A DNA stretch of 64,000 nucleotides from Hymenobacter oligotrophus. GTDB taxonomy: Bacteria; Bacteroidota; Bacteroidia; Cytophagales; Hymenobacteraceae. This document shows, piece after piece, positions 1 to 64,000 of the stretch. Below the pieces are notes generated by a model, which was not told the origin of the DNA, did not search any database, and saw only the letters and a list, made by a program, of their open reading frames with translations. Both the position numbers and the translations under genes were made by a program. Positions within the stretch are counted from its first letter, which is position 1; every line of letters begins with the position of its first letter. The DNA lies in NCBI RefSeq assembly GCF_003574965.1, contig NZ_CP032317.1, forward strand, positions 1,922,001 through 1,986,000. Direction: 5' to 3'.

Positions 1-82
1 CGGCTTGCATATAATTAGGGCTATATACGCGCCCGACGGTAGCGCGGCTACCTAGGGGCGGCACGCCGCCTGCCTGCAGGGG

Positions 83-628
83 CTAAAAATCGTCGAGGCC
101 GCCTTTGCGCAGCTCGTCCACGGTGCGCATCACCTTGTCGCGCAGGGCGGCGCGGTATTTTTCCAGCGCATCGGCCAGGCGGGCATTGCCGATGGCCAGC
201 ATTTGCACGGCAAGAATGGCGGCGTTGGCGGCGTTGTCGAGGGCCACGGTAGCCACGGGCACGCCCGCGGGCATTTGCAGCATCGACAGCACCGAATCGA
301 GCCCGGCAATGCTGGTGGCCGCGTTGATGGGCACGCCAATTACCGGCAGCGTGGTGAAGGCCGCCACCATGCCGGGCAAGTGGGCCGCGCCGCCCCCGCC
401 GGCAATTACCACGCGCAGCCCCCGCTTGCGCGCCGACTCGGCGTACTCCACCAAGCGGTGCGGCGTGCGGTGCGGCGACACCAGCGTAATCTCGAAGGGC
501 ACCTGAAACTGGCGCAGCACCTCGGCCGCCACGTTCATCACGCGCAGGTCGGATTGGCTGCCCATAATGATGCCCACCACCGGCGTGGAGGCATCGGGGG
601 CGTTGTGGTCGGGAGGAAGCGTTGTCAT
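83..628 (-). CDS. purE: N5-carboxyaminoimidazole ribonucleotide mutase PurE
   Basis: Class I PurE of 181 aa, which moves the carboxyl group of N5-CAIR to C4 to give CAIR in de novo purine synthesis in the cytoplasm. The sequence has the N-terminal phosphate-binding stretch GIIMGSQSDL, the SPHRTPHRL segment carrying the catalytic His, and the glycine-rich GGGGAAHLPGM loop, in the family order. The length fits PurE with a short N-terminal extension. I chose the ATG at 628 because the reading frame upstream of it has no family similarity. It is divergent from the MarC-type gene. No purK follows within the window, so PurK must be elsewhere. Assignment is firm. Confidence 0.95.
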   Translation of the reverse strand: MTTLPPDHNAPDASTPVVGIIMGSQSDLRVMNVAAEVLRQFQVPFEITLVSPHRTPHRLVEYAESARKRGLRVVIAGGGGAAHLPGMVAAFTTLPVIGVPINAATSIAGLDSVLSMLQMPAGVPVATVALDNAANAAILAVQMLAIGNARLADALEKYRAALRDKVMRTVDELRKGGLDDF

Positions 629-737
629 GGCAGTGGCTGGGAGAGGCAATGGGCACCAAGCGGCAAGCCCGGCAGTATGCATACGCAGATGCGCCCCGCC
701 GGAGCCAACAAAATCGGTACTGTATGCGCTGCTCCGC

Positions 738-745
738 TACCTTTA
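738..745 (+). promoter_or_regulatory. -7 box TACCTTTA upstream of the MarC-type gene
   Basis: Matches the Bacteroidota primary sigma -7 consensus TAnnTTTG at 7 of 8 positions, and lies 22 nt before the ATG at 768. No convincing -33 element is visible. Confidence 0.5.
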
Positions 746-767
746 GCCAGAATATATTGCCCGCTGC

Positions 768-1385
768 ATGGAGATACTGCTCGCCACCTTCACTACGCTG
801 TTTTCGGTTGTCAACCCGTTCGGGGCCATGCCCGTGTTTCTGACCCTTACGCAAGCCGACACCGCACACCAACGCGCCGCCACCGCCCTGCGCGCCTGCA
901 CCTACATGGTGGGCGTGCTGGCCGTGTCGTTTTTTGCGGGGCAGTACGTGCTCAATTTTTTCGGCATCAACATCCATCACCTGCGCATTGCGGGCGGTAT
1001 TTTGCTTATGCGCTCGGCCTTCGACCTGCTCACGCCCGGCGCCAACCGCGACCGGGTAGGCCCCGCCGTGCTCGAAGAAAGCCTGCACAAAGACGATATC
1101 AGCTTTACCCCGCTGGCCATGCCCATGCTCTCGGGCCCGGGCTCCATCGCGGTGTGCATCAGCCTGTTTACCGAGCGGCTCAGCTACTTCGATATCAGCC
1201 TGATCGTGCTGGGCTTTGTACTGGTAGCGCTGGCCAGCTACCTTATTCTGCTGTCGTCGTTGCGGCTTACGCGCTTCCTAGGTCGGCCGGGCTTGGCGGC
1301 GCTGGCACGGGTAATGGGGTTTATCACGCTGGCTATTGGCGTCAATTTTCTGGCCTCGGCCATTAAAGCGCTGTTTCAGGAGTAA
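768..1385 (+). CDS. MarC family integral membrane protein
   Basis: A 205 aa protein with about six hydrophobic segments covering the whole length. The N-terminal FSVVNPFGAMPVFLTLT and the central ISFTPLAMPMLSGPGSIA are hallmarks of the MarC/UPF0056 family of inner-membrane proteins. The biochemical function of this family is unsettled; the old link to antibiotic resistance in E. coli was not confirmed. The gene stands alone, divergent from purE, with a -7 box 22 nt upstream of the ATG. Family assignment is strong; the role is unknown. Confidence 0.9.
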   Translation: MEILLATFTTLFSVVNPFGAMPVFLTLTQADTAHQRAATALRACTYMVGVLAVSFFAGQYVLNFFGINIHHLRIAGGILLMRSAFDLLTPGANRDRVGPAVLEESLHKDDISFTPLAMPMLSGPGSIAVCISLFTERLSYFDISLIVLGFVLVALASYLILLSSLRLTRFLGRPGLAALARVMGFITLAIGVNFLASAIKALFQE

Positions 1386-1466
1386 GTGTTTTCGTTCGGA
1401 TAGCGCAGCAGGTGCTAGGCCAAGCCGGTTGATAATTATCACCCAACAGCACAACCATCCGTAGGC

Positions 1467-1474
1467 TATCTTTG
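1467..1474 (+). promoter_or_regulatory. -7 box TATCTTTG upstream of hemE
   Basis: Perfect match to TAnnTTTG, 21 nt before the ATG at 1496. It overlaps the upstream in-frame TTG at 1472, so that TTG would lie at or before the transcription start, which supports the ATG as the true start. Confidence 0.7.
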
Positions 1475-1495
1475 CGGCCCGAAACCGCTTATCTG

Positions 1496-2542
1496 ATGCT
1501 GAAGAACGACCTGATCCTGCGTGCCGCCCGCGGCGAACAAACCGAACGTACTCCTGTATGGCTGATGCGCCAGGCCGGCCGCATTTTGCCCGAGTACCGC
1601 GCGTTGCGCGCCAAGCTGAGCGGTTTTAAGGAACTGGTTGAAACACCCGACCTCGCGGCCGAGGTAACCATTCAGCCCATTGATGCGCTCGATGTTGACG
1701 CGGCTATCATCTTCTCCGACATTTTGGTGGTGCCCGAGGCCATGGGCCTCACCTACGAAATGGTGGAGGCCCGCGGCCCGCTTTTCCCGGAAACGGTGAA
1801 GTCGGCGGCCGATGTGGCGCGCCTGCGCGTAGCCGACCCCGAGGAGCACCTCGGCTACGTGCTCGAGGCCCTGCGCGTCACCAAAAAAGCCCTAGGTGGC
1901 CGCGTGCCGCTGATTGGTTTTGCCGGCGCCCCCTGGACGATTCTGGCCTACATGGTGGAGGGCCACGGCTCCAAAACCTTCAGCAAAGCGCGCCGCATGC
2001 TGTTTCAGGACCCCGAGCTTTCGCACCAGCTGCTCCGTAAGATTACCGACACCACCATTGCCTACCTGCGCGCCCAAGTAGAGGCCGGTGCCAATATGTT
2101 GCAGGTGTTCGACTCGTGGGCGGGCATCCTGAACCCACAGCACTACCACGAGTTTTCGGCCCGTTACATCGGCGAAATTTGCGCCGCGATGCCCGCCGAC
2201 GTACCCGTAACGGTGTTTGCCAAAGGAGCTTTCTTCGCCCACCACGACTTCGCCCAGATGCCCTGCCGCACCATTGGCCTCGACTGGAACGAAGACCCCA
2301 GGGCTGTGCGCCAACTAGTAGGCGACAAAACCCTGCAAGGCAACCTCGACCCCTGCGCCCTCTACGGCACGCCCGAGCAAGTGCGCGCGGCCACTATCGA
2401 AATGCTGGAGCGCTTCGGCCCGCAACGCCACATTGCCAACCTAGGCCACGGCGTGTACCCCGACACCAACCCCGAGCGCGTGAAGGTATTCGTGGAAACG
2501 GTGAAAGAGCACAGCACCCGCATGCGCCAGGATTTGGCCTAG
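1496..2542 (+). CDS. hemE: Uroporphyrinogen decarboxylase HemE
   Basis: A 348 aa enzyme that removes four carboxyl groups from uroporphyrinogen III to give coproporphyrinogen III in haem synthesis. The family signature [17 protein letters not shown] lies near residue 20, the catalytic Asp region [14 protein letters not shown] follows, and the C-terminal [15 protein letters not shown] is typical. The length is that of the family. The ATG at 1496 was chosen over the in-frame TTG at 1472 because a perfect -7 box covers that TTG. The stop codon TAG is itself inside a CCTAGG hexamer. No other haem genes are adjacent. Confidence 0.96.
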
Positions 2543-2553
2543 GTGCATAAAAT

Positions 2554-2656
2554 CTGTCATCCTTCATCTGGCGTACGCGCAGCGAAGGACCTTGTCACGT
2601 GGGATAGTAATTTCTATCTGGCGAGAGAAGGTCCTTTGCTGCGCTCAGGATGACAG
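2554..2656. repeat. REP-like inverted repeat between convergent genes
   Basis: The left arm begins CTGTCATCCT and contains GCGCAGCGAAGGACCTTGTC; the right arm contains GAGAAGGTCCTTTGCTGCGC and ends AGGATGACAG, so the two arms are reverse complements except for a 13-nt stretch (TCATCTGGCGTAC) present only on the left. A second copy of that left-arm variant is at about 4778. This type of CTGTCATCCTGAGCG...GAAGGACCTT repeat is common between genes in Bacteroidota. It separates hemE from the convergent sugar-kinase gene and may act as a terminator. Confidence 0.8.
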
Positions 2657-2668
2657 CTTTTTACTAGC

Positions 2669-3679: not shown

Positions 3680-3706
3680 CGGAAAGCAGAATGGCGAATG
3701 AAGCCG

Positions 3707-3714
3707 CAAAGGTA
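3707..3714 (-). promoter_or_regulatory. -7 box TACCTTTG upstream of the sugar kinase
   Basis: Perfect TAnnTTTG on the minus strand, 27 nt before the ATG at 3679. Confidence 0.65.
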
Positions 3715-3925
3715 GCGTTCGGCGCAGAGTTATGGGCCCATCGGCCGCGCCCAACCACGCGCCGCGCCAACCCGCTTCCGCGGACTTTGCTCCGTTGTGC
3801 GCCGGCGGCCCCACCCCACCGGCTCGAACTTGCGCGGGCCGGCCGGGTTATCATCACGTTTTACGGTGGCCGATGCCCCCGGGGCCCCGCTCCTGCCGTT
3901 TACCCAACCGTACCCAACAACTCCC

Positions 3926-4705: not shown

Positions 4706-5073
4706 GCAGTCGGAAAGAGCTGTGTTCTTTACACCGTCGTACTGAACTCGTCGAAGCATCTCGCCGGATAGTATTGTCATCCCTCACCTGGCGTACGCAA
4801 AGCGAAGGACCTTCTCACGCCCGAACAGCTTTCCTAGGTCGTGTCATGTTGAGCAGAGCGAAACATCTGGCGGCTGAATTCAGATAGCACCCGCTCCCCT
4901 CTCTTTTGGAGAGGGGCTGGGGGTGAGGTTTCGGTACGATGCTTGGCTCTGCCAACCTGCGGTTCGGCTTTGCTCAGCATGAGGCTCCTGTTGCTAGCTG
5001 TCCGCACGCCCTAGGTAACCGGCTGCGCCCTGCCCGGGTGTGGCTTGCTACCTAGGGCGCTTGTGCGGGCTGA
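4706..5073. repeat. Intergenic island of several repeat families
   Basis: No gene is seen in these 368 bases. They hold at least four unrelated repeat pieces in a row: about 4738-4760 (a CTGAACTCGTCGAAGCATCT-type piece), 4778-4817 (a second copy of the variant arm of the 2554 element, with GGCGTACGCAAAGCGAAGGA), 4844-4874 (TGTTGAGCAGAGCGAAACAT type) and 4890-4930 (CCCCTCTC...GAGAGGGG...GGGGGTGAGG hairpin). Two CCTAGG hexamers follow near 5011 and 5051. The last piece recurs in altered form at 39746. Confidence 0.65.
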
Positions 5074-6297
5074 TTAGGCCAGCTTGGCCAAGCTTACTTT
5101 GATGCGGCGAAAGGCCTCGCGCAGCTTTTCATCGGCAGCGGCGGTGCTCATGCGCAAGCACTGCGGGGCGCCAAATGCGCCGCCGTCTACGGTGGCTACG
5201 TGGCCGTCGTTGAGCAGGTAAATAGCCAGGTCGCAGGCGTTTTCGATAACCTGGCCCTCGGGCGTGGCTTTGCCGAAATACGACGACACTTCGGGGAATA
5301 CGTAGAAAGCGCCGCTTGGCGTAGGCGTTTTCAGGCCCGGAATCTCGCGCACCATTTCCAGCACCAGGTCGCGGCGGCGGCGGTAGGCTTCCACCATTTC
5401 GTCGGCCGAGGTGCGGCCGCCTTGCAGGGCTGCCAGTGCTGCGCGCTGCGCAATGGAGCAGGTGCCCGAGGTAATCTGGCTTTGCATCTTTTCGCAAGCG
5501 GCGGCAATTTCCTTGCGGGCCGCCAGGTAGCCAATGCGCCAGCCCGTCATGGCGTAGCCCTTGGAGAAACCGTTGATGGTGATTACCTGGTCCTTCACCT
5601 CGGCAAACTGCGCCAGGCTTACGTGCTCACCCACAAAGTTGATGTACTCGTAAATCTCGTCGGCAATGACGTGCACGTGGGGGTTGCGGGCCACTACCTC
5701 GGCAATGGCGGCCAGCTCCTCGCGCGAGAACACCGAGCCCGTGGGGTTGCACGGCGACGAGTACATCACCAGCTTGGTGCGGGGCGTAATGGCTTCTTCG
5801 AGCTGCTCGGCGGTTACCTTGTAGTCGTTTTCGAGGGTGCCCACCAGCTTAATGGGCGTGCCCTCGGCCAGTTTCACAATCTCCTCGTAGCTAACCCAGT
5901 AGGGCGAAAAAATGAGCACTTCGTCGCCGGGGTTTACCAAGCTCATCACGGCGTTGGCAATGCTTTGCTTGGCGCCGGTGCTTACTACAATGTTTTCGGG
6001 CTTGTAATCGAGGTTGTTGTCACGCTTGAATTTCTCGGCAATGGCGGCGCGCAGCTCGGGGTAGCCGGGCACGGGTGTATAAAACGTGTAGCCGTCGTCG
6101 ATGGCTTTCTTGGCCGCGTCCTTAACGTACTGCGGGGTCTGAAAATCGGGTTCGCCGAAGCTCAGGCTAATCACGTCGACGCCTTTGGCCGCCAGCTCGC
6201 GGGCCTTTTTGGCCATGCCAATGGTTTGCGACTCTTCCAGCGCGTTGATGCGGTCGGATAAGAACGAGGTGGCTAGCGTGTCGGCAGCGTTCGACAT
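5074..6297 (-). CDS. Class I pyridoxal-phosphate aminotransferase, aspartate type
   Basis: A 407 aa fold-type I aminotransferase of the aspartate aminotransferase I-gamma group. Visible are SFGEPDFQTPQYV near the N-terminus, YSSPCNPTGS (the Asn that contacts PLP), ADEIYEYI (Asp to pyridine nitrogen), the lysine motif NGFSKGYAMTGWRIGY, and the substrate Arg in LRMSTAA near the C-terminus. It probably interconverts aspartate and oxaloacetate with glutamate, though related enzymes also use prephenate or other amino acids. The start at 6297 is supported by a -7 box 39 nt upstream. It stands alone. Confidence 0.93.
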   Translation of the reverse strand: MSNAADTLATSFLSDRINALEESQTIGMAKKARELAAKGVDVISLSFGEPDFQTPQYVKDAAKKAIDDGYTFYTPVPGYPELRAAIAEKFKRDNNLDYKPENIVVSTGAKQSIANAVMSLVNPGDEVLIFSPYWVSYEEIVKLAEGTPIKLVGTLENDYKVTAEQLEEAITPRTKLVMYSSPCNPTGSVFSREELAAIAEVVARNPHVHVIADEIYEYINFVGEHVSLAQFAEVKDQVITINGFSKGYAMTGWRIGYLAARKEIAAACEKMQSQITSGTCSIAQRAALAALQGGRTSADEMVEAYRRRRDLVLEMVREIPGLKTPTPSGAFYVFPEVSSYFGKATPEGQVIENACDLAIYLLNDGHVATVDGGAFGAPQCLRMSTAAADEKLREAFRRIKVSLAKLA

Positions 6298-6336
6298 GGA
6301 GAGAATGCGGGCTTGGGGTGGGAAATGGGGAAAGTG

Positions 6337-6344
6337 CAAAGGTA
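6337..6344 (-). promoter_or_regulatory. -7 box TACCTTTG upstream of the aminotransferase
   Basis: Perfect TAnnTTTG on the minus strand, 39 nt before the ATG at 6297. Confidence 0.65.
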
Positions 6345-6439
6345 CGCAGATAGGCGCTGCGTGCAGTATGGGCCGGCGCCCCGCGCTGCACAAACCCCTG
6401 CGGCACAACCCGCTGCCGTTTGCCTAGGTTTCGCCCTGG

Positions 6440-8431
6440 CTACTCCTGCCCCAGCACCTGAAAATTGCGCAGCACCAACCGCAAGTCGTCGGCCGGCGAA
6501 TAGTCGCGGGCGTAGATGAGCTCCAGGCGGCGGCGCGTGGCATCGTTCATGGCGAAGTTGGCGTGCACGGCCTCATCGGCCGGCGAAAACACGGCGCGCG
6601 GCGTGCCCGTGCGGGGCGCCATGTAGCGCAAGCCCACCCACGTGCGCCGGCCCAGCAGCACCCGCAGCACGTTGCGCAAAAAACCACCTAGGGCGGCGCG
6701 CTGCCGCAGCAGCACCAGCGGCGTACCCACCAGCACGGCCAGGCTGATGCCGATATCGAGCAGGCGTTTGGCCCGCCGTTGCTGGGGCTTGTAAAGGTTC
6801 AGCTCAATCTCGAGGGCGTAGTAGTCGCCGGGCGCATCCTTCGACGAGCTTCCGATGATGTAGTCGCTGTCTTCGGGCAATATCTTGAAAGCCACCTCGG
6901 GGTGCGTGTCCTGCAGCTGCACCATGTTGCCCATAATCTGACTGGCTGTCAGGTCTTTGCCGCAGAATACCAGCTCCGTCACGTCGTAAATGCGCAACAC
7001 CTCGTCAAGTTGGCGCAACGAGCCCAGTTGGTCGGCCGGCGTGTCGGCCGACGAGCCTTCGTCGGCGGGGCTGATGAAACCCAGAATACGGGCCTGCACG
7101 GCCGCGGCGCCCAACAGCCGACGCACGCGTTGGCTTTCGGCCTCGGAGCCCACAATGGCAATGTTCTTGGGCGGCTGCTCGGAGAGGCGCAAATCGCGGT
7201 AGCGAATGAAATGCTGCACTACCCGCCGCGCTACCATGGCCCCCACAGCCCACACGCCACCTAGGATGATCAGCGCTTTGGAGAAACGCCAGGCATCCAG
7301 GAAGTTCGAAATGGCCGAAATCAGCACCGTGCCGATAAGGATGCCGTGCGCAATGCGCGAGGTTTTGGCTGGCTCGTCGTAGGAGCCGCTGAGGTAGGCC
7401 GAGCTGAGCCACACCACAATGTAGGCCGGCACGGCCACCAGCATGTACTGCGGCGGGTAGGGCGTGGGCACAAACTTGTGGTTCTGCTCCCAGTAATCCT
7501 TCAGGAAGTACATGCCCCCCAGGATAATGAGCGCATCGAGCAGCACGGGCCAGCCCTTGTCCCAGAAGCGCCGACCTAGGGCCACCCCAGCGCGCAGCCA
7601 AATGGCAAAGTTGATGAGCAGCGAAAACGCGCCGGCCTGCTTGGGCGCAAAGTGCTTCTGGGCGAAAATGACCATGGCCCGGTAAAACACGAACACGTAG
7701 TTTACCGAGGTGCGCTTGGTGCTTTCGCCCTTGTAATGGATGATGCGGGTGCCGGGGAAGTAGTAATTCTTCCAGCCGCCCTGCGTAAGCCGGTACGAGA
7801 GGTCAATGTCCTCGCCGTACATAAAGTAATCTTCGTCGAGCAGGCCTACTTGGTCGAGGGCGGCTTTGCGCATTAGCATAAACGCACCGCTCAGCACTTC
7901 TATCTCATGCGTCTGGTCTTGGTCGAGGAAACCTAGGTGGTAACGGCCAAACGTGCGCGACTTCGGAAACAGCGCTGCCAAGCCGAACACTTTGTAAAAG
8001 GCAATCCAGGGCGTGGGCAGGCTGCGCTTGCTTTCGGGCAGAAACTTGCCCTGCCCGTCGAGCATCTTCACCCCCAGGCCGCCGGCTTTGGGGTGCGCAT
8101 CCATAAACGCGCAACACGCCCGGAAGGTATCTTCCTCCACCACGGTGTCGGGGTTCAGCAGCAGCAGGTACTCGCCCTTGGCTTGGCGCAGGGCTTGGTT
8201 GTTGGCCTTGCTGAAGCCGGGGTTATCCTGGTTTTCAATGAGGATAACCTCCGGAAAGCGCTGCCGCACCATGGCCACCGAGCGGTCGACGGAGTTGTTA
8301 TCGACCACAAACACCTCCACCGGCTCGCCCAGCTTTTCAACAGCACGGCGCACCGACAACAGCGTCTGCTCCAGGAAGTAGCAGACGTTGTAATTAACGA
8401 TTACGACAGAGAGCTTGGGGTAAGCCGGCAC
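6440..8431 (-). CDS. Family 2 glycosyltransferase fused to a decayed sugar-phosphate transferase module
   Basis: A 663 aa membrane protein. Residues 1 to about 250 form a GT2 domain of the rhamnosyltransferase type (LSVVIVNYNV, VDNNSVDRS, LLLNPDTVV, YGEDIDLSYRL). Then come about five hydrophobic segments (roughly 265-410), a Rossmann-like domain starting PPKNIAIVGSEAES, and a C-terminal piece that opens like a polyprenyl-phosphate glycosylphosphotransferase (AKRLLDIGISLAVL) but lacks that enzyme's catalytic core. It likely adds a sugar in surface-polysaccharide synthesis at the inner membrane. The start is a GTG at 8431; no ATG fits, and a -7 box lies 20 nt upstream. Confidence 0.85.
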   Translation of the reverse strand: MPAYPKLSVVIVNYNVCYFLEQTLLSVRRAVEKLGEPVEVFVVDNNSVDRSVAMVRQRFPEVILIENQDNPGFSKANNQALRQAKGEYLLLLNPDTVVEEDTFRACCAFMDAHPKAGGLGVKMLDGQGKFLPESKRSLPTPWIAFYKVFGLAALFPKSRTFGRYHLGFLDQDQTHEIEVLSGAFMLMRKAALDQVGLLDEDYFMYGEDIDLSYRLTQGGWKNYYFPGTRIIHYKGESTKRTSVNYVFVFYRAMVIFAQKHFAPKQAGAFSLLINFAIWLRAGVALGRRFWDKGWPVLLDALIILGGMYFLKDYWEQNHKFVPTPYPPQYMLVAVPAYIVVWLSSAYLSGSYDEPAKTSRIAHGILIGTVLISAISNFLDAWRFSKALIILGGVWAVGAMVARRVVQHFIRYRDLRLSEQPPKNIAIVGSEAESQRVRRLLGAAAVQARILGFISPADEGSSADTPADQLGSLRQLDEVLRIYDVTELVFCGKDLTASQIMGNMVQLQDTHPEVAFKILPEDSDYIIGSSSKDAPGDYYALEIELNLYKPQQRRAKRLLDIGISLAVLVGTPLVLLRQRAALGGFLRNVLRVLLGRRTWVGLRYMAPRTGTPRAVFSPADEAVHANFAMNDATRRRLELIYARDYSPADDLRLVLRNFQVLGQE

Positions 8432-8451
8432 GGGTGGAAAAGCAATACACC

Positions 8452-8459
8452 GAAAGTTA
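8452..8459 (-). promoter_or_regulatory. -7 box TAACTTTC upstream of the glycosyltransferase
   Basis: Seven of eight matches to TAnnTTTG on the minus strand, 20 nt before the GTG at 8431. It limits how far upstream the start codon can be. Confidence 0.5.
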
Positions 8460-8587
8460 GCGACTTTGCTAATGCCCTACCTACGGACGAGCCGCATCTT
8501 ATAGATTTCTTAACTGCTAGGTTTTGATTCTTTAATATCCTGCTTGCCACAACCCTCCCCTGCAATTGCACCAATGCCCAAAATAAA

Positions 8588-8617
8588 AACCGCCTCAACT
8601 GCATAGCTGAGGCGGTT
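8588..8617 (-). terminator. Intrinsic terminator of recR
   Basis: Stem AACCGCCTCA / TGAGGCGGTT with a 10-nt loop, followed on the minus strand by a T-rich run (complement of 8578-8588). It lies 20 nt past the recR stop. Confidence 0.85.
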
Positions 8618-8636
8618 TAGCTTGTGTGGCGCTGCT

Positions 8637-9251
8637 TTACCGGGCCTGCCGTTGGCGCTCCACAATGGAGCGACCTAGGGTAATCTCGTCGGCGTACTCC
8701 AGCTCGCCGCCCACCGGAATACCGCGGGCAATGGAGCTGATGTGCACCTCGGGGAACTCGCGCAGGCGGCGCGTAAGGTAAAAGGCCGTGGTGTCGCCTT
8801 CCATCGTGGGGCTGATGGCCAGAATAACTTCCTTTACCTCGCCTTCCTCCCCTTGCATACGGTCCATCAGCGGTTCGATGTGCAGGTCGCTGGGGCCGAT
8901 GCCCTCGATGGGCGAGATGACGCCGCCCAACACGTGGTACACGCCCTGGTATTGGCCGGTGTTTTCGATGGCAATTACGTCGCGGATGTCCGACACGACG
9001 CACACGGTGCTATGATCGCGCAGCGGGTTGGCGCAAATCGAGCACTGCTCCGTGTCGGAGATATTGAAGCAGGAATTGCAGTACCGAATATCGAAGCGCA
9101 TTTTAGCCAATGCCTCGGCCAACGAGCTGGTCGTTTCCGTTTCGGCTTTCAGCAAGTGCAGCGCCAGGCGCAAAGCCGTTTTGCGGCCAATGCCGGGCAG
9201 CTTCGAGAGTTCCGCTACCGCGTTTTCGATCAGTTTAGAGGGAAATTCCAT
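8637..9251 (-). CDS. recR: Recombination mediator protein RecR
   Basis: RecR of 204 aa, which with RecO/RecF loads RecA at gaps. The order of elements is complete: helix-hairpin-helix [20 protein letters not shown], a C4 zinc finger with Cys58, Cys61, Cys70 and Cys73, a Toprim domain starting [14 protein letters not shown] and a C-terminal Walker-B-like piece. Length is typical. It follows clpS on the same strand but a 91-bp repeat element separates them, so they are probably not one operon. A strong terminator follows. Confidence 0.96.
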
Positions 9252-19908: not shown

Positions 19909-19932
19909 CTGCCCTAGGGTAACTGCCCTAGG
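19905..19932. repeat. Tandem 14-bp duplication carrying CCTAGG at a stop codon
   Basis: GTAACTGCCCTAGG occurs twice back to back (19905-19918, 19919-19932). The first copy includes the TAA stop of the upstream gene. Both copies end in CCTAGG. Confidence 0.85.
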
Positions 19933-41846: not shown

Positions 41847-44387
41847 CTACTTTTTGCCTAGCTCAATCATATTCGTCAGCAGCCGGTAGGCGCCCGGCAC
41901 GCCGGCCGGCAGCTCGCGGAAAAACGACAAACCCGTATAGATGTAGTGGCCTTTGCCGTACTCGGCTACCAAAATGGCGCCTTCCTTGGCCGATTCGCCG
42001 GGGTCGTTGCTGCTGATGATGGTTTGGTACTTGGCATCCCAGGAGTTAGGATAGTACAAGCCCTGCTCCTGTACCCAGCCCTGAAAATCGCGCTCCGTAA
42101 TCTTGTTCGGGGTGTTTAGCAGCGCATGCTCGGGCTTCAGAAACTTCACCGGAGCGTTTTCAACTGTTACGCGCTCCGAGGATAACTTAAGCGGATACGG
42201 GCCGATTTCGGGCAGCACGGTGCCGCGGTTCACGGTGTACTGCACCACCAGGTTGCCGCCTTTCTCTACGTAGTCGAGCAGCACGGGCTGCAGGTAGCGC
42301 AGGCGCTCCACGGTGTTGTAGGCCCGCACCCCCAGCACTACCGCATCGAAGCGGCGCAGGCTTTGGGCCGAAATGTCTTCGGGTTTGAGCAGCGTTACCG
42401 CGTAGCCAATCTGGCGCAGGGCATCGGGCACTTCGTCGCCGGCGCCCATGAGGTAGCCAATGTTGTTGGCCTTGCGCTTCAGATCGAGCTTTACGAGCGG
42501 TGCAAAGGCTTCGGGGAACAGCGTTTGGGCCGGAATGTGAGTGTAGTTGATGTTCTGGATGCCGCGCGAATATTGCTGACCATCAACGGTAGCCACGGCG
42601 CGCAGCTGATTGGCGCTTTCCTGGTTGCCCGTGGGCTGCACCTGAAACTCCACCGTGCGCTCCTCGTCCTTGTTCTTCAGCTCGAACGGAATGCTGGCGG
42701 GCTCTACTTTCCAACCGGCCGGTACCTGAAGAGCAACCGTGCCTTTGGCATTGGCGCGGCCAGCTTTCAGCGTTACCGGCACTGTTTTGGGCTGGTTTTC
42801 GGCAAACACATAGGCGTGGCCGATGAGGTTTACGGCTACTGGCGGCACTACCGTGAGCGGCCGGTACAGCTCGCCGTATACAGGGTCGGTGCGCTTGTAT
42901 TGAGCGGAGAGCAAGAATGGGATAGTGTTCTTACCTATTTTCACACTAACCGCCACATTTACTGCTTCTCCATTTTCAGCGTCACCGCGTTGTACCTGAT
43001 CGGCAACAACGTACATGCCAGTAGTACCAGGTTGGCGTAACCAGTAAGGCTGCGAGACGGTGTAAGTAACTGGCACTGTATACTTCAACTGAAGGCGCAT
43101 TGCTTCTTCGGCCCTCAGCAATTTGCGCAACACAGTGTCTAATTTCGCCTCATTTAGACGTCCGATATGCACAGATTGAACTTCAATAGGAGATGCGGAG
43201 CGATTAACTGCTTCAACATTGAAGCGCAATACCTGACCCGGAACGACCGATGCCTCGGCAGCCGTTACCTCCAAATGCAACCCCAAGCAGGCACGTATTA
43301 AATCATTGACGGATTGCAACTTGGTCCCTAACAAATAATTACCCTTTGCATCACTTCCATCGCCAGTTAGCTTCATAAGAAGCTCGCGTATCTCCATCAA
43401 CCCGGCGATTGAGGCGGCAGGATTGTTCGGGTCGTATTTGCGAATAACCTCGCTAGTGAGTTTATCCATGTTATAACCGCCCAACGATTGTTTGCCTTGC
43501 AAGCGCCGCCAAGTCACATCTATGCCCTCAAATGGGTCTTTGCTAACCTTCTCCCCCTTTATCTGCTGCAGGTACTCAATAGCCTCGCCGCGTGAAGCGC
43601 TGGCGCCCATGCCCTGGCTTTGGTGCTGCGAGCGGCTGCGGGCGGCAATTTCACCGTAGCTCTGGCCTAGGAGGGCGTTGTAACCACCGGCATCTACCTT
43701 CAGGTAGCCGCTCATGTCCTCGCCGGGTTTCACGAAAAACGAGCCGGTGTTCCAGAACAAGCGCTTGGGTTGCCAGGGCTGCACGTATTGCAGCTGCTCC
43801 GGAAAGCGCTTCGGGTCGCCGGCAGCATCGAAGGCTTCGAGGGCGAGCATAGCCGAGGCGGTGTGGTGGCCGTGGCCGGCGCGGCTGTCGGGCGGAAAGC
43901 GGGTGATGAGCACATCGGGGCGGCGCTGCCGGATAACCCACACCATATCGGCCAGCACCTGCTCCTTATCCCAAATGGTAAAGGTTTCTTCGGCGGTTTT
44001 GCTGAAGCCGAAATCGTTGGCGCGCGAGAAAAACTGCCGGCCGCCATCGATGCGGCGGGCTGCCAGCAGCTCCTGCGTCCGGATTACACCTAGGGCTTCG
44101 CGCAGCTCGGGCCCGATTAGGTTCTGGCCGCCGTCGCCGCGGGTGCAGCTGAAATAGCCGGTTTCCAGGAGGCGGCCGTTGGCGAGGTAGGCAATCATGC
44201 GGGTGTTCTCATCGTCGGGGTGCGCGGCGATGTAGAGCACCGAGCCCAGCACGTTGAGCTTTTTCAGGCCCAGCAGGATTTCCGACGACGAATATGTTTT
44301 GGGTGCTTGGGCACTTGCTTCAAGGAAGAAGGAAGAATGAAGCAGGACGAGGGCCGACAGCGCGGCGCGGAGGCGAGTCAGGAGCAT
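41847..44387 (-). CDS. Secreted PIG-L family deacetylase with C-terminal extension
   Basis: An 846 aa protein with a signal peptide (ending ASA-QA, about 27), then a PIG-L/LmbE zinc deacetylase domain: AHPDDE at residues 55-60, DSRAGHGHHTAS near 167-178. The rest is a beta-rich middle (NEW3-like: AGWKVEPASIPFELKNKDEE) and a C-terminal class I amidotransferase-like domain (RFDAVVLGVRAYNT). It likely removes N-acyl groups from sugars in the periplasm. Residues about 276-496 are encoded by a block of much lower GC (about 42,900-43,560), unlike both flanks. A -7 box supports the start. Confidence 0.88.
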   Translation of the reverse strand: MLLTRLRAALSALVLLHSSFFLEASAQAPKTYSSSEILLGLKKLNVLGSVLYIAAHPDDENTRMIAYLANGRLLETGYFSCTRGDGGQNLIGPELREALGVIRTQELLAARRIDGGRQFFSRANDFGFSKTAEETFTIWDKEQVLADMVWVIRQRRPDVLITRFPPDSRAGHGHHTASAMLALEAFDAAGDPKRFPEQLQYVQPWQPKRLFWNTGSFFVKPGEDMSGYLKVDAGGYNALLGQSYGEIAARSRSQHQSQGMGASASRGEAIEYLQQIKGEKVSKDPFEGIDVTWRRLQGKQSLGGYNMDKLTSEVIRKYDPNNPAASIAGLMEIRELLMKLTGDGSDAKGNYLLGTKLQSVNDLIRACLGLHLEVTAAEASVVPGQVLRFNVEAVNRSASPIEVQSVHIGRLNEAKLDTVLRKLLRAEEAMRLQLKYTVPVTYTVSQPYWLRQPGTTGMYVVADQVQRGDAENGEAVNVAVSVKIGKNTIPFLLSAQYKRTDPVYGELYRPLTVVPPVAVNLIGHAYVFAENQPKTVPVTLKAGRANAKGTVALQVPAGWKVEPASIPFELKNKDEERTVEFQVQPTGNQESANQLRAVATVDGQQYSRGIQNINYTHIPAQTLFPEAFAPLVKLDLKRKANNIGYLMGAGDEVPDALRQIGYAVTLLKPEDISAQSLRRFDAVVLGVRAYNTVERLRYLQPVLLDYVEKGGNLVVQYTVNRGTVLPEIGPYPLKLSSERVTVENAPVKFLKPEHALLNTPNKITERDFQGWVQEQGLYYPNSWDAKYQTIISSNDPGESAKEGAILVAEYGKGHYIYTGLSFFRELPAGVPGAYRLLTNMIELGKK

Positions 44388-44414
44388 TCGGGAAAGCGAA
44401 TGGAACGAGGGGCG

Positions 44415-44422
44415 TAAAGGTA
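44415..44422 (-). promoter_or_regulatory. -7 box TACCTTTA upstream of the PIG-L gene
   Basis: Seven of eight matches to TAnnTTTG on the minus strand, 27 nt before the ATG at 44387. Confidence 0.55.
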
Positions 44423-44545
44423 TTGGTTTAGGTAGCCGGGATAAAAACCCGACTTTGCCGCAACGGTTGCGGCCCGGCCGCCGTCGGTGGCATAACTTAC
44501 CGCGCATTCGGGGGCGCACCTCCCCTTTTCAACCGCATTTTCTGC

Positions 44546-47399: not shown

Positions 47400-47458
47400 C
47401 GCTCACCCAACCCGGTGCCCTAGGTGCCGCACGTGGCTACCGCCCTAGGCAGCAAGCC

Positions 47459-53433: not shown

Positions 53434-53991
53434 ATGCCCTTTTTGCGCCCTATGCCCGATTCAGCCGCTGCTGCCGTAGCTATACAACCCGCCACGCTGG
53501 CCGATATCCCGACGATTATTGCGCTGGCCGAAGCCACCTGGGAGCCCACGTACCGCTTCATCATCTCGAAGGAGCAGATCGAGTACATGTACCGCGTGAT
53601 CTACACGCCGGCTTCGCTGCAACGGCAAATGACCGACGACGGCCACCGCTTTCTGGTGCTGCACTACGAGGGGCACCCGGCAGGCTACGCCTCGTTCAGC
53701 GAACGGGCTACCGAGCCAGGCACCTTTAAGCTGCACAAGCTGTACGTGCTGCCCTCGCACCAGGGCCGGCGCCTAGGTCAGCAGCTGGTAGCGGCCGTGG
53801 AGGAGGCCGCCTGCGAGGCGGGCGGCCAGTGGCTCGAGCTGAACGTAAATCGCCACAACCCGGCCCTGGGCTTCTACGAGCACCTGGGCTTTCAGCAGCA
53901 CCGCGAGGAGGACATCCCGATTGGCCCGTACTGGATGAACGACTTTGTGATGCGCAAGCCGCTGCAAGCCAAAATATTGCCCTTCGCCTAG
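53434..53991 (+). CDS. GNAT family N-acetyltransferase
   Basis: A 185 aa acetyltransferase: IQPATLADIPTIIALAEATW at the N-terminus, FKLHKLYVLPSHQGRRLGQQ with the acetyl-CoA pyrophosphate motif (QGRRLG), and LNVNRHNPALGFYEHLGFQ at the end, in the RimI-like order. Substrate unknown. The stop codon TAG lies in a CCTAGG. Followed 66 bp later by the CDGSH gene on the same strand; they may be co-transcribed. Confidence 0.92.
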   Translation: MPFLRPMPDSAAAAVAIQPATLADIPTIIALAEATWEPTYRFIISKEQIEYMYRVIYTPASLQRQMTDDGHRFLVLHYEGHPAGYASFSERATEPGTFKLHKLYVLPSHQGRRLGQQLVAAVEEAACEAGGQWLELNVNRHNPALGFYEHLGFQQHREEDIPIGPYWMNDFVMRKPLQAKILPFA

Positions 53992-54057
53992 GTGCCTGGC
54001 ACTGCCGGCACCCCAGGCACCTAGGGCTTCACCGCTTTTTCCTACACACTTTTTCCT

Positions 54058-54301: not shown

Positions 54302-54335
54302 AAAGCCCGCCCTGGTTTGCACCTAGGCGGGCTTT
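54302..54335. terminator. Bidirectional intrinsic terminator
   Basis: Arms AAAGCCCGCC / GGCGGGCTTT with a 14-nt loop that contains part of a CCTAGG; between the convergent CDGSH and acyl-CoA-binding genes. Confidence 0.8.
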
Positions 54336-54356
54336 GCCGTTAGGAGGAGCCGCTGC

Positions 54357-57385: not shown

Positions 57386-57410
57386 GCCCTGGCTCTAATT
57401 AACTATGCCC

Positions 57411-57433: not shown

Positions 57434-57436
57434 CAT

Positions 57437-58471
57437 CTAGGCCATTCGGGGCCGGCCGAGCACAAGGCGCAGGTTCATGCGCACCACATCGCCCACGGAG
57501 TCGCAGCGGTCGAACTCGGCGGTTTGGTGGTGCAGGTTCAACTCCTTTTTCAGCTGCGCAATTTTTTCGGCCGACGAAAGCTCCTCCTGCCGCATGCAGT
57601 CCACTAAGTCTTTGAGGCGGTAACGCTCGGCGCGGGCGCGGCGGGCCATCAGGGTGCGCTCTTCGGTTTGGTATTGCCTGATGGTTTCGGGCGAAAGCAG
57701 CTGGCGCACCAACTCCACCACGGGGCGGTTGTCGCGAAAATACTGCGGCAGGTACATGGCCTTGTGGCCCTCGTAGCTCTGCTGGTCGAAGTCGATGGCC
57801 CGCACGCGGTATTGTTCGTCCTCGAAATCGGGCGTTACGTCGATAACGTAGTTGTAAGAGCGCATATCGCCGAGCAAGCGCGCAAAGCACCGCTCGTTGA
57901 ACTTCACGAACTCCTTGGCAATGCGTACTTGGTTGAGGTGCGGCCGATCGAGGCGCGTCCGAATAAAGTCGTCGCCCGGAATGCCCGCAATGTGCTCCTC
58001 GATGAGCGTGTCGCCGGCCACCAAAAAGTTGATGCTGTTCGGCGACAACAGGTGCTCCAGCTCCAGCCCGTACACGCGCGAGGCATCGGCCCGCTTCACG
58101 TAGAAGTAGTCGTAGTTGTCGTTGAACTGGTTGACGATGCGCACCCGAAACGGGTTGGAGTTGCCGAACCGGCAGTAATCCACGCGGTCGGCAATGAGGT
58201 GCTCCGTAAACGACAGGTCGCCGTCGGTTTTCAGCAGCGCGTACACCTGCGTGAGGCCCGCGCTCAGCTCCAGCAGCGTGTGCGGCTCGTAGTGCACGGT
58301 TTCCCAGAGCGTGTCGGTGCCCTGGCGGTCGAGCAGCGGAAACGAACCGGTGGAGCGCAGCAAGTCGCCGTATGTCACCGGCAGGCGTGTTTCGCGGTCG
58401 TAAAGGTGCAGGTATTCGCGCAGCGGCTGGCTGATGCGGTACGAAGGCTTCTTTTTGGATATTTCGTTCAA
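57437..58471 (-). CDS. Conserved hypothetical protein with kinase-like (APH/HipA-type) motifs
   Basis: A 344 aa cytoplasmic protein. Motifs in the order of a protein-kinase-like fold: Lys126 in YFYVKRADASRVYGLELEHL (possible beta3 Lys and helix-C Glu), a hinge-like LIEEHIAG (156-163), the Brenner-type Asp202-x4-Asn207 in GDMRSYN, and Ile-Asp227-Phe-Asp229 in RAIDFDQQS as a possible DFG equivalent. This pattern is typical of aminoglycoside-phosphotransferase and HipA-like kinases, but no close family is recognised. The start appears to be a TTG at 58471; no ATG fits upstream. Confidence 0.6.
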   Translation of the reverse strand: MNEISKKKPSYRISQPLREYLHLYDRETRLPVTYGDLLRSTGSFPLLDRQGTDTLWETVHYEPHTLLELSAGLTQVYALLKTDGDLSFTEHLIADRVDYCRFGNSNPFRVRIVNQFNDNYDYFYVKRADASRVYGLELEHLLSPNSINFLVAGDTLIEEHIAGIPGDDFIRTRLDRPHLNQVRIAKEFVKFNERCFARLLGDMRSYNYVIDVTPDFEDEQYRVRAIDFDQQSYEGHKAMYLPQYFRDNRPVVELVRQLLSPETIRQYQTEERTLMARRARAERYRLKDLVDCMRQEELSSAEKIAQLKKELNLHHQTAEFDRCDSVGDVVRMNLRLVLGRPRMA

Positions 58472-58725
58472 GGCAGGTGGCGGGCAAGGTGATGCTGCAA
58501 GAACGTAAAAACGCCCCTAGGTGGCGGTAACGCCGGGTGGTACTCGGCACTGGGGCGGCACGTCCCCATCAAGGGTCGGGCTGCTGCCGCGCAATTCCGC
58601 TTGGCCGCTGTGGGCGGCCGCGCCGAGTGCCGCTCAACACTACACCGAGAGTAAGATTTCCCGAGCTTCAATTGTGCGCTAACGCGCTGCTACTCGGGCT
58701 AGTACGCACCCTGCTGGTCCGTTCC
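58472..58725. other. Gene-free stretch next to a decayed gene
   Basis: 254 bases with no gene. A CCTAGG lies at 58515. The sequence does not resemble the missing C-terminal part of the neighbouring receiver remnant. Confidence 0.5.
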
Positions 58726-58960: not shown

Positions 58961-58987
58961 GAACGGAGCGTTGAAAGGGAAAAACAA

Positions 58988-61900: not shown

Positions 61901-62317
61901 GCTTTGGCGCAGGGCTTCTTCCACGGCCGTGCGGGGTTGGTCGGCCGTGTCGGAAAAACAGACCACCAGTACCTCGCCGGCCCGGTGAGCGGCCAGCTGA
62001 AAGTAGTTGTCGAGGCCGTCGTGCTGGTAGTTGACGTCGTAGCGCCCCGGCCCGCCGGCCAGAAAGGTGTCGCGGTAAAACGCGAAAATGCCGGTTTCTA
62101 TCGTGTTGGGGTACAGCGTCAGAAACGTTTCGGCCGGGCGCTCGGGCCGCTGCAGCATGCGCTGGGCGGCCGGGTTCAGGTATTCGTACGCCAGGTCGAC
62201 AATGGTGGCCTGGTCGGCGGGGTCGTATACGGGCCGGAACACGATATAGCCCGACAGCGACACGTCGAGCACAACGGGCAGCAGTTCGGGCAGGGCAACA
62301 GAAGCGGGCAAAGGCAT
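58988..62317 (-). CDS. PAS-domain sensor histidine kinase
   Basis: A 1109 aa kinase with no signal peptide or membrane segment, so probably cytoplasmic. About six PAS domains follow each other between residues ~10 and 860 (repeated pattern FxFTNPGYDAMVG, FEYANPAYQALFPDR, YEFINPSYQRLVPN, each ending in ...VTERVQAR). Then HisKA with His889 (TASHDLKAPISN), N-box Asn1008 (NLLSNALKY), G1 DNGLGLD (about 1038) and G2 GTGIGLFMVKRM (1064). PAS4, PAS5 and PAS6 resemble each other, suggesting internal duplication. Its response regulator next door is decayed, and direct repeats lie in its promoter. Confidence 0.93.
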   Translation of the reverse strand: MPLPASVALPELLPVVLDVSLSGYIVFRPVYDPADQATIVDLAYEYLNPAAQRMLQRPERPAETFLTLYPNTIETGIFAFYRDTFLAGGPGRYDVNYQHDGLDNYFQLAAHRAGEVLVVCFSDTADQPRTAVEEALRQSQVREQQARAEAEAQRRRLHDVLMALPAQVSTFNGPEHVYELVNPRYQQLFPSRPVQGLPIRQALPELAGQGIIERLDRVYQTGEPHVDPELETWVDRTGTGRLEQCYFSVLLQALRDAEGRVDGLLNFAYDVTEQVQARRQVQQLNQELESRVLQRTQEAEAARAEAEAVARRLQRITESLPSTTFTVDEHGQILYVSPQYYAYTGLAPSLPMGQDQPAHLGPVGQGWPELIHPDDLPLVAREYGGALAQGHGWRYEFRLRGADGRYRWFASQGVPEPLEDARAAGRPRQWFGSNLDIDDLKRAQHELELQDQRLREILRQSPAMIASVEGPNHRFAFTNPGYDAMVGQRARPGATVAECLPELAAQGFVELLDEVYRTGQPHIGREALVVLESAGSGPAPHYFDFTYQPLPDAQGQTTGVLAFIVDATERVQARQRADEAQAQALAAAEQAAAQRESFYRVFEQTPACIALLRGPEFRYEYANPAYQALFPDRPLLGRTVAEAFPETVEQGFLAWLDGVYQTGQTYVGQEAKFTAAPAVGLPPQDTYYDITYQAIREGEQITGISIFAFDVTERVRARKEREAQRRQLLNLFEQAPAGIAILAGPSMAYEFINPSYQRLVPNRALLGLPFLEALPELADNPVTSIMRNVYATGQAHEERELLIPVARTLEGEPENRYFSFVYQPRRNEHNQVDGLLVFVFEVTEQVQARQQVLNLNEELKGANAELAAANQQLTRTNIDLDNFVYTASHDLKAPISNLDGLLALLRHELPAEVAQSEYVAPTLSHMRDAVERFKRTIDQLTDVSRLQKEHSPAAVAVDLAAVVDDVCQDLAPLLRETNARLTVAVANFPAVLFSEKNLRSVVFNLLSNALKYRHPARRPHVDVRAHVRTGYTVLEVHDNGLGLDAAQLPRLFAMFQRFHSHVEGTGIGLFMVKRMVENAGGRIEVHSQPGAGTTFFVHLPHAPGPAVVA

Positions 62318-62375
62318 GGTAGAGCTGGCAGCACAAGCGCTGAAGGCCCCGGCAATCCGGGGCGCGCTCTAGCAA

Positions 62376-62411
62376 AGTAAGACAAAGTACACTCAGAGTA
62401 AGACAAAGTAC
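62376..62411 (-). promoter_or_regulatory. Two 15-bp direct repeats with 21-bp period upstream of the histidine kinase
   Basis: GTACTTTGTCTTACT (minus strand) occurs perfectly at 62376-62390 and 62397-62411, start to start 21 bp, i.e. two helix turns. They lie 59-94 nt before the ATG at 62317. Each carries a TACTTTG that resembles a -7 box. The spacing is that of LytTR- or response-regulator-type direct-repeat sites. Confidence 0.6.
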
Positions 62412-62452
62412 CCTAAGAACAATGCAGCCATCAGCGCGGCAGCCGGCCCTAG

Positions 62453-62714
62453 GTGCGCGTGGGTGCCAGCCTGCCGGCAGCCGAGCAAGACGGCACAGCG
62501 TCTCTGCGCGTGCAGGATATTGACATTGGTATTCCGGAAGAGCTGCAGGAGCGGGTTTTTGATAAGTTTGGCGGCCCGGCCCGGGGTTGCCGGTATGGTC
62601 AGCACCGGCCTAAGTTTGTTTGTCACGAAGCAGATCGAGCAACTGCACCAAGGCAAAATTCGCCCGAAAAGTATCGGGGGCGCTGGCACCTGCTTGGTGG
62701 TAGGGCTGCCATAG
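62453..62714 (+). pseudogene. Decayed histidine-kinase ATPase (HATPase_c) fragment
   Basis: On the plus strand 62453 onward reads SLRVQDIDIGIPEELQERVF and then DKF, the G1/F-box part of a kinase ATPase domain. After about 62575 the continuation is in the +1 frame: STGLSLFVTKQIEQLHQGKI and then GTCLVVGLP with a stop at 62712-62714, the G2 box (normally GTGLGL) and end of the domain. No N-terminal kinase part is present and the frame is broken. It is on the strand opposite to the intact kinase. Confidence 0.8.
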
Positions 62715-62819
62715 GCCCTGGCCTGCTTGGCCCAGATCTCACCTAGGGAATGGTGAACAACCAACGCCAAAATTTCCCGAACTTTAAGTGCCTTTTCCCG
62801 CCATTTGGCACTCTTCCAT

Positions 62820-64000
62820 GAAAAAAGCTTTATTCTCCTTGGCGCTGGCCATGCTGGTGCCGGTGTTGTCGCCCGGCTGGGGCTTTTTTGGTCACCGCAC
62901 CATCACGCAGATAGCCGTGTACACGCTGCCCTCGAGCATGCAGGGCTTCTACTACCGCCACATGCCGCAGCTGGTGAAGCTGAGCACCGCCCCCGATGAG
63001 CGCCGCAACGACGACCCCACCGAGGCTACCAAACACTTCATCGACATGGACCACTTCGGCGACAACCCCTTTGGGATGATGCCGAAAGACTACGACAAGG
63101 CCGTAGCCAAGTACACCGCCGATACGCTGAAGAAATACGGTGTGGTGCCGTGGGTGGTGCTCGAAACCAAGGAAAAGCTCACCGAAGCCTTTAAGCAGCG
63201 CGATACCACCGCCATAATTGCCCTGTCGGCCGATTTGAACCACTACGTGGCCGATGCCTTTGTGCCGCTGCACACCACCGAGAACTACGACGGCCAGCTG
63301 ACCAAGCAACACGGCCTGCACTCGCTGTGGGAGTCGAAGCTGCCCGAAATGTTTATTGCCGATTACAAACTCGACTCGGAGAAAGCCGATTACCTAAAAG
63401 ACCCGAAGTCGGCCATCTGGAGAGTGGTGCAGGATTCGTACGGGTTCTTGGGTGCCACCTTCGACTACGAGATGGAGTTGAGCAAAAACTTCCCCACCGA
63501 GAAGAAGTATACCTACTCGCACAAATACGGAAAAACCCGCCGCTCCTACTCCGATGCGTTTGCCAAGGAGTACCACAAGAAAGTGGGCGGCATGGTGGCT
63601 TACCGCCTGAAAGGCGCACCCACCATGGTAGCCTCGATGTGGTACACGGCCTGGAAAGATGCCGGCAGCCCCGACCTAGGCGCCATGATGCGCCCCGGCA
63701 AGCTTAGCAAGGAAGAAAAGAAAGTGCTCGACGAGCAACTCGAAGCCTGGAAGGACAACCAACTGGTGCCCCTGAACATGCTGCTTTCGTTGCAGAAGGA
63801 GAAGTCGGAGGAAAAGCCCGACGTGGTGGGCTCGGCCGATGGCGCCGCCCCCGCGCCGGCCCCCGAAGCAGCAGCGCCCGCCGCTGCCCCCGCAGCTGCC
63901 CCCGAGGCCGACAAAGTAAAGACCAAGGAGAAGCGCGACAACGACAAGCAGAAAGAGAAAACCAAGGCCAAGAAGAAGGACGACAACAGCCCCTTCAACG
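62820..64000 (+). CDS. Zinc-dependent phospholipase C / S1-P1 nuclease-like protein (5' part)
   Basis: The first 393 codons of a gene that runs past the window end. Signal peptide about residues 1-20 (ALFSLALAMLVPVLSPG), mature start WGFFGHRTITQIAV, then HFIDMDHFGDNPFG, NHYVADAFVPLHTTENYDG, HGLHSLWESKLPEM, and WYTAWKDAGSP: the Trp1 and His/Asp zinc ligands of the zinc-dependent PLC/S1-P1 nuclease fold. An Ala/Pro and Lys-rich low-complexity tail (PAPAPEAAAPAAAPAAAPEA) then begins. It could be a phospholipase C or a nuclease; periplasmic or secreted. No stop in the window. Confidence 0.85.

Follow-up and report, generated by a model that had tools for sequence, protein, structure and literature searches.

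CCTAGG is a highly iterated, directional word in Hymenobacter oligotrophus and may be one dialect of an uptake-type self-word in Hymenobacteraceae

Introduction

The origin of highly iterated words such as HIP1 is debated. HIP1 and the alternate highly iterated palindromes (HIPs) are short GC-rich words that occur about once per kb, are patchy across relatives, are replaced in some genomes by other words, and have been linked to methyltransferases (Elhai, PMC4390886). The DNA uptake sequences (DUS) of Neisseriaceae and the uptake signal sequences (USS) of Pasteurellaceae are also found about once per kb, on both strands, are depleted in acquired DNA and form clade-specific dialects (PMC3630211, PMC7371117, PMC7811141); the density of DUS is one per 400-1100 bp and falls in genomic islands (PMC7371117). 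Chi sites are another over-represented mark of self-DNA. Here we analyze the palindrome CCTAGG in a stretch of 64,000 nucleotides of Hymenobacter oligotrophus (bases 1922001-1986000 of a 4.10-Mb contig; hereafter, the window), in the complete 4.19-Mb genome (G000) and in relatives within the family Hymenobacteraceae.

CCTAGG is iterated throughout the genome

The window contains 96 copies of CCTAGG, whereas its base composition predicts 21.0; this bears out a sequence-only reading of the same DNA that had put the figures at about 95 and 21. The pattern extends beyond what was stated there: the genome has 5678 copies, for about 1374 predicted from the composition of the window and 67 in the reversed control. 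This amounts to about one word per 740 bp, with sampled stretches of the chromosome ranging from 1.0 to 1.8 words per kb. CTAG occurs 149 times in the window, 96 of them inside CCTAGG. The sites are as follows.

51..63680, no strand assigned: all 96 CCTAGG sites, given by their first bases: 51, 1277, 1891, 2440, 2538, 2757, 3456, 3495, 4204, 4833, 5010, 5051, 6423, 6687, 7260, 7575, 7932, 8674, 9303, 10059, 11010, 11205, 12396, 13262, 13610, 14205, 15455, 15660, 15858, 17596, 18304, 19351, 19575, 19913, 19927, 20983, 21101, 22174, 24370, 25047, 25319, 25686, 26294, 26750, 27788, 28814, 30131, 30446, 30653, 30956, 32820, 33314, 33451, 34194, 34446, 35426, 36839, 37669, 37954, 38155, 38368, 38509, 39808, 40233, 40722, 41058, 43666, 44089, 45493, 46223, 46788, 47419, 47444, 48445, 48751, 49218, 51223, 51295, 51541, 52472, 53772, 53987, 54020, 54322, 55130, 55194, 55907, 56320, 57007, 58516, 58725, 59193, 61236, 62448, 62742, 63675

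Over 384 kb of chromosome taken from 17 places, CCTAGG ranks first in over-representation among palindromic hexamers under Markov models of orders 1, 2 and 3 (554 observed versus 79.5, 69.4 and 118.2 expected; ratios of 7.0, 8.0 and 4.7), and the over-representation claimed earlier therefore survives correction at these orders. At order 4 it lies outside the four highest palindromic hexamers, and a maximal-order model of the window expects 79 copies for the 96 observed. This last excess is weak because the sub-words feeding the model occur mostly inside CCTAGG itself; a maximal-order test misleads for a word that holds most copies of its own sub-words. The strongest evidence for enrichment is the contrast between genomes, since five congeners carry only 123-249 copies, and we regard the genome-wide iteration of CCTAGG as near certain.

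The sites lie both inside and between genes, as had been claimed. However, the word is carried by 38 of the 54 predicted genes of the window rather than by nearly every gene (predictions come from a rough caller written for this analysis, so that "outside genes" includes missed genes). Spacing over all sites of G000 is close to random, with too few distances below 20 bp.

The unit is directional and fills synonymous positions

The bare palindrome, taken earlier as the unit, is the core of a directional word: an A flank is present on exactly one side at 85 of the 96 window sites, giving ACCTAGG[G/C]. In the window, ACCTAGG[CGA] reads 44 times on the plus strand and 41 times on the minus strand, one site is ACCTAGGT (A and T on both sides) and 10 have neither flank. 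Among 609 sites over 424 kb of G000 there are 324 ACCTAGGG, 180 ACCTAGGC, 39 ACCTAGGA and 10 ACCTAGGT (the palindrome halved, as the table counts both strands). The commonest flanked form differs in other genomes rich in CCTAGG ("high" genomes), being ACCTAGGT in G023 and CCCTAGGG in G065; symmetric flanks of the HIP1 kind are not the rule in G000. The likeness to HIP1 proposed by the sequence-only reading holds for a strongly over-represented, genuinely iterated palindrome at HIP1-like density, inside and between genes, and fails for the asymmetry of its unit. This asymmetry adds to that account, as do two features described below, the scarcity of the word on small contigs and the use of other words by relatives.

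Within genes, the word is nearly always read as ..C CTA GG. in a Leu-Gly frame (57 of 61 coding sites in the window), and it occurs in both directions relative to the gene. Eligible Leu-Gly pairs are written as the word in 57/155 cases in G000, 77/180 in G200 (Solirubrum puertoriconensis MC1A, which falls with G000 in one genus within the family that holds Hymenobacter) and 49/191 in G203, versus 1/154, 1/117 and 3/165 (1-2% or less) in low congeners. A larger sample gave 346/893, 128/294 and 90/307 for the three high genomes, so that 37-39% of the synonymous opportunities are filled in G000. Leu CTA not followed by Gly stays at 2-6% in all six genomes, high and low alike, and the word is denser outside than inside predicted genes (2.32 versus 1.24 per kb over 424 kb of G000).

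A plain mutation bias or codon bias, the former among the causes suggested earlier, would agree with coding words lying almost only in the Leu-Gly frame. However, neither the ordinary usage of CTA elsewhere, nor the occurrence in both directions and at higher density outside genes, nor the convergence of several kinds of base change on one product (see below) is what such a bias would leave behind, and we consider it very improbable.

Most sites arise by substitution, and eligible places are filled nearly independently

In alignments of G000 with low congeners (77-79% identity), the counterparts of the word are CCCAGG, CCGAGG, CCCAGC, CCGAGC and others, and rarely gaps; therefore, most sites arise by substitutions of several kinds with a single product. 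Changes from C to T, from G to T and in the flanks all end in the same word. An origin as the scar of a mobile element was rejected, since sites fell at gaps in only 2/44, 2/49 and 2/45 cases against three low congeners, and in 3-7 of 41-70 sites in six alignments of G200 and G203. Deamination at CCWGG without Vsr was rejected as well: it would raise every CTAGG, but only CCTAGG is high among them.

When the three high genomes are compared, the word is retained at 0.74 and 0.66 of 65 sites, versus 0.51 and 0.53 for the average hexamer; some other hexamers are kept as well or better (CCTACG, 0.73 and 0.82 of 22; TGGCCA, 0.58 and 0.78 of 36). Neighboring words repel each other. With the three high genomes pooled in five distance bins, an eligible pair with another word within 125 bp is filled in 81/397 cases (about 20%), versus 27-34% in within-gene shuffles, although two bins are weak taken alone (equally low values arose in 21 of 300 shuffles at 50-75 bp and in 18 of 300 at 100-125 bp). 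At distances of 125-1000 bp the filling fraction is 39-46%, and above 1 kb it is 58% (shuffles, 52%). Eligible places are therefore filled nearly independently, with short-range redundancy.

Such site-by-site filling toward a finished product is what would be expected of a word-specific mismatch correction enzyme acting without methylation, a new enzyme with a logic similar to that of Vsr. A repair gene of this kind had been proposed earlier, but Vsr has no match in G000 and does not track the high genomes (matches in 9 of 34 genomes, two of them among the nine high ones), and a repulsion over about 125 bp is unexpected of a purely local enzyme. We judge this explanation quite improbable; if repair of some kind were at work, it would be a new word-specific conversion process.

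A separate observation concerns G203, which reads CCCAGG at 9 of 13 sites where G000 and G200 have the word (orthologous region L076-L079). The frequency of CCCAGG is about doubled in this genome, which also has matches to Vsr and to a C5-methylase. Vsr turns CTAGG into CCAGG, and it may erode the word in G203.

High and low genomes are interspersed, and small contigs nearly lack the word

Two words, CCTAGG and AAGTATAA, were counted across the whole genomes of 204 members of the family. Copies of CCTAGG number 5325-8806 in nine genomes, 1209-2331 in four and at most 888 in the remaining 191. In the genus of H. oligotrophus, three genomes are high (5678, 6212 and 5325) and five are low (123-249), so that counts differ 20- to 50-fold. 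With congeners of 5000-6000 copies beside others of 100-250, and sister genomes differing at many sites, the process can be followed and its cause mapped by gene content. A protein encoded in the window served as the query for fetching named relatives and building a tree.

41847..44519, minus strand: PIG-L family protein

This tree (a single protein, 60 rows, built by a quick method and with some forks open; other high genomes of genus g4 are not placed in it) places the named high genomes at three separate positions, with low genomes branching beside each. G000, S. puertoriconensis and G203 form one group (support, 100), H. crusticola and H. cavernae another (100), and the high genome of Hymenobacter sp. 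BT559 (L170) groups with H. setariae (91). High genomes scattered in this way among low ones imply either several gains of the word or one gain and many losses.

The three small contigs of G000 (84.9 kb, read whole), which are probably plasmids judging by their size, hold 3 copies of CCTAGG. The depletion in acquired DNA known for DUS is therefore seen here, on small contigs only. A contig of another high genome shows a similar pattern: L108 (G116:C2:1-20000), which carries an MmeI-type enzyme, has 1 site, versus 21 and 10 per 20 kb in two other contigs of that genome, and from this case word density may be a mark of newly arrived DNA. Whether the cause lies in uptake or in repair, the density of the word may be of use in dating the foreign DNA of these genomes.

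Relatives use other words

Words differ by clade within the family: ACCTAGG[GC], ACCTAGGT, CCCTAGGG, TGGCCTAG, GGCTAGCC and AAGTATAA. They come from K-mer scans of 55 named family loci and of sampled genomes (17-384 kb each, set against the one-gene tree), where a dispersed word is one with a z above 7; loci of about 8-23 kb give limited power, and CAGCAG and similar codon-type words were excluded by judgement. None of 25 loci from outside the family, also scanned, had a dispersed word at this threshold. TGGCCTAG is dispersed in H. fodinae, H. wooponensis, G036 and G122, relatives without CCTAGG, and GGCTAGCC in L171 and L172; L170 and L172 are different records, both named Hymenobacter sp. 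BT559, with different words. CTACCCC/CCTACCC, in several Hymenobacter, is a provisional word, and CCTACCC is not denser outside genes.

AAGTATAA was found in Pontibacter loci, together with its variants AAGTATGG and GGGTATAA. Of the 50 genomes in genus g6, which the named loci suggest is Pontibacter, 23 contain more than 2000 copies of it (both strands), whereas the count is at most 662 in the 154 genomes outside g6; its reversed control gives 35-183 per strand in g6. In G166 we counted 365 copies in 380 kb versus 11.9 expected, and 3 copies in 20 kb sampled of a small contig of 73.8 kb. Single-base variants of the word in G166 are raised 7.6- to 11.7-fold at positions 7 and 8 and 0.6- to 4-fold at the rest. 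Both AAGTATAA and TGGCCTAG are non-palindromic, which is a further difference from HIP1. As with DUS, a word that is not a palindrome thus occurs on both strands at close to one per kb, in the form of AAGTATAA and of the directional ACCTAGG[GC] around its palindromic core, and the dialects follow clades.

These data bear on the possibility that the word is a binding site for chromosome biology, either a Chi-like recombination signal or the site of a nucleoid protein that marks self-DNA. The near-absence from small contigs and the retention between sister genomes would suit such a site, and Chi motifs do differ between distant taxa (PMC8022716). However, Chi is well conserved in Enterobacteriaceae (PMC8022716), whereas the turnover of words here is fast, and the filling of 37-39% of synonymous opportunities seems beyond functional need. 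A Chi-type polarity along replichores was not seen either: the two halves of the G000 contig, whose origin was not located, give 97/117 and 93/102 words in the two directions, with no reversal, and AAGTATAA in G166 gives 202 leading versus 163 lagging with the sign of the GC skew as a guide. The chromosomal signal of the sequence-only reading is retained as a rival, and we consider it improbable.

Several side observations concern the words themselves. The words of H. rigui, H. psychrophilus and H. aerophilus were dropped as tandem arrays (L145, L159 and L160; 7-bp units of the CTAAGCA, AGCTAAC and CCCTAAG type). In L110, L143 and L148, two copies of TGGCCTAG that meet head to head and share CTAG make up GTGGCCTAGGCCAC, a perfect inverted repeat. 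Besides ACCTAGGT, H. crusticola (L095, L096 and L146) and G023 carry ACCTAGCT as a second word, which may reflect a dialect in transition. H. coccineus and H. caeli have an excess of GGGGCCCC, and a related metagenome-assembled genome has one of AGGGCCCC (L164, L161 and L168); GGGGCCCC, which does not have the TA of other words, may be something else. Among the matches listed for literature on CCTAGG, Hymenobacter motifs and Bacteroidota uptake sequences, we found no report of these words in this family, which is weak evidence of absence given that most subscription journals lie outside the coverage; for another genome, PMC1939737 lists GCCTAGGC among palindromes that are under-represented, its effect being unknown.

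Methyltransferases of the high genomes

MmeI-type relatives read asymmetric 6-7 bp words, and one such enzyme is a candidate for a modification-guided repair of the kind proposed for HIP1, in which a methyltransferase would mark the finished word and strand-directed mismatch repair would keep new ones. The link of HIP1 and alternate HIPs to methyltransferases (PMC4390886) favors this explanation, as does the palindromic form of several family words; AAGTATAA and TGGCCTAG, which are not palindromes, do not fit it. The METHYLTRANSFERASE test gave no match for PF00145, PF01555 or PF02086 in G000, and of the nine high genomes, 2, 4 and 0, respectively, have a match. These families were rejected as a cause since none tracks the high genomes (11/34, 20/34 and 5/34 genomes with matches, respectively).

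A scan of the whole of G000 for [DN]PPY found 12 places, all of the N type, one of them in a protein that is PrmC-like by eye. For [DN]PP[FW], 42 distinct places were examined, among them all those listed with F or W; 14 fall within open frames of at least 120 aa, and four are methyltransferase-like. By eye, two of these four are of the RNA type, and profiles identify the other two as a type I HsdM and an MmeI-type (type IIG) enzyme. The candidates left are the type I and the MmeI-type (type IIG/IIL) enzymes; motif variants outside the scanned patterns would be missed. The methylation site suggested by the sequence-only reading is thus weakened, with these two enzymes still standing.

The MmeI-type gene of G000 (C1:2003398-2007012) is an open frame of 1204 codons with 7 words inside. 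It is old in G000, and its homologue at the corresponding locus of G203 is 86.7% identical. However, the gene is missing at this locus in G200, where 447 bp lie between the matching flanks, and G200 keeps the same word at full density; the loss could be recent, or another copy could exist elsewhere in G200, most of which was unsearched. The homologue in G116 sits on a word-poor contig. In addition, the HIP1 model expects filling to level off near 1 kb (PMC4390886), whereas here it changes little over 150-1000 bp (0.39 to 0.46) and reaches 0.58 above 1 kb, with shuffles at 0.52. Taken together, we hold modification-guided repair to be rather unlikely.

A proposed uptake-type self-word

The explanation we favor, with a probability of about 0.38, is that the family words would be dialects of an uptake-type self-word near saturation that works without a type IV pilus, a mechanism deduced from the pattern of the words. 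Its wider form is more tentative: Hymenobacteraceae may have fast-evolving self-words, many clades owning a word of 7-10 bp that is read by a putative pilus-free uptake receptor and is present in up to about 40% of the synonymous positions able to hold it. Some factor would recognize ACCTAGG[G/C] once the sequence is complete, and fixation would favor variants creating the word over those destroying it. Words would accumulate over long times in resident chromosomal DNA, in a large part of the places that the proteins permit, and fewer would be placed where another word lies within about 125 bp. The likeliest factor would be a sequence-preferring DNA uptake or transformation system: cells taking up word-bearing DNA from their kin would spread the word by molecular drive, as in Pasteurellaceae and Neisseriaceae, by a route without a type IV pilus such as the transformation of Riemerella (Bacteroidota), and changes in receptor specificity would lead to dialects. 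The recognition of a product, the dialects, the non-palindromic words, the near-absence from small contigs and the short-range redundancy fit uptake-type molecular drive; that the factor acts in uptake, and that the words of different clades form one system, is what we infer from them.

The words of Hymenobacteraceae resemble DUS and USS in density, in their presence on both strands, in their depletion in acquired DNA and in their dialects. They are, however, shorter (7-10 bp), and their uptake function is putative. The TA step beside G or C that is common to the family words (not GGGGCCCC) is a much weaker counterpart of the invariant CTG of DUS.

Several findings weigh against uptake. PF00437, the ATPase of type IV pili and secretion, has no match in G000 or in the other eight high genomes (over the 204 family genomes, 76 have some match, 7 exceed the cut-off and 4 are strong). 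The known type of DUS receptor, a minor pilin of a type IV pilus, therefore cannot be at work, and the words are not members of the DUS family. ComEC, found in 44 of 44 genomes tested, permits transformation without proving it and, being present with or without the word, discriminates nothing. We found no receptor and no gene covarying with the word, no unbiased search for such a gene having been made. Single-mismatch forms are little enriched. Close words are disfavored in G000, whereas 23% of the USS of Haemophilus have a neighbor less than 100 bp away; in G166 close words are in excess, so that repulsion is not general. Several words are palindromic, as expected of methyltransferase sites rather than of uptake sequences. 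Finally, 18 of the 55 named family loci have no dispersed word at a z above 7, and some others have codon-type words only.

Riemerella, of the same phylum, transforms with ComEC (also found in the word genomes), DprA, ComF, RecA and proteins without homology to well-characterized machinery, one of them a proposed beta-barrel, and no pilus gene is among the transformation genes named in the available part of PMC8459023. The term "uptake sequence" is absent from the main text of that article. Homologues of its unknown proteins are mainly from Flavobacteriaceae (PMC8459023); therefore, this route may not exist in Hymenobacteraceae. If pilus-free uptake were nevertheless true, these would be the first uptake-sequence dialects in Bacteroidota, an isolation by DNA dialects in a group without known pilus machinery, and they would give a handle on its DNA receptor.

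Other features of the window

Some words of the window stand in close pairs or beside repeats, and five predicted genes over 900 bp are free of the word, one of which is listed here.

5010..5056, no strand assigned: close word pair, CCTAGGT ... ACCTAGG, facing apart, outside predicted genes
19913..19932, no strand assigned: close word pair, 14 bp apart, outside predicted genes
47419..47449, no strand assigned: close word pair, 25 bp apart, outside predicted genes
53987..54025, no strand assigned: words at both ends of an inverted repeat seen by eye
54302..54336, no strand assigned: stem-loop-like stretch, by eye, AAAGCCCG ... CGGGCTTT, with the word at 54322 just before the second arm
57437..58471, minus strand: word-free predicted gene over 900 bp, strongly conserved

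The last of these has about 85-88% DNA identity in four of the five low congeners and 79% over a longer piece in the fifth.

Two further observations concern hexamers other than the word. Hexamers of the GTGAC/GTCAC and GGTCC/GGTCA types are depleted about 2- to 5-fold in the high clade (window, G200 and G203) relative to low congeners (G197, G201 and G202). In genus g4, 32 genomes contain 0-10 copies of GGATCC each, a pattern of strong avoidance.

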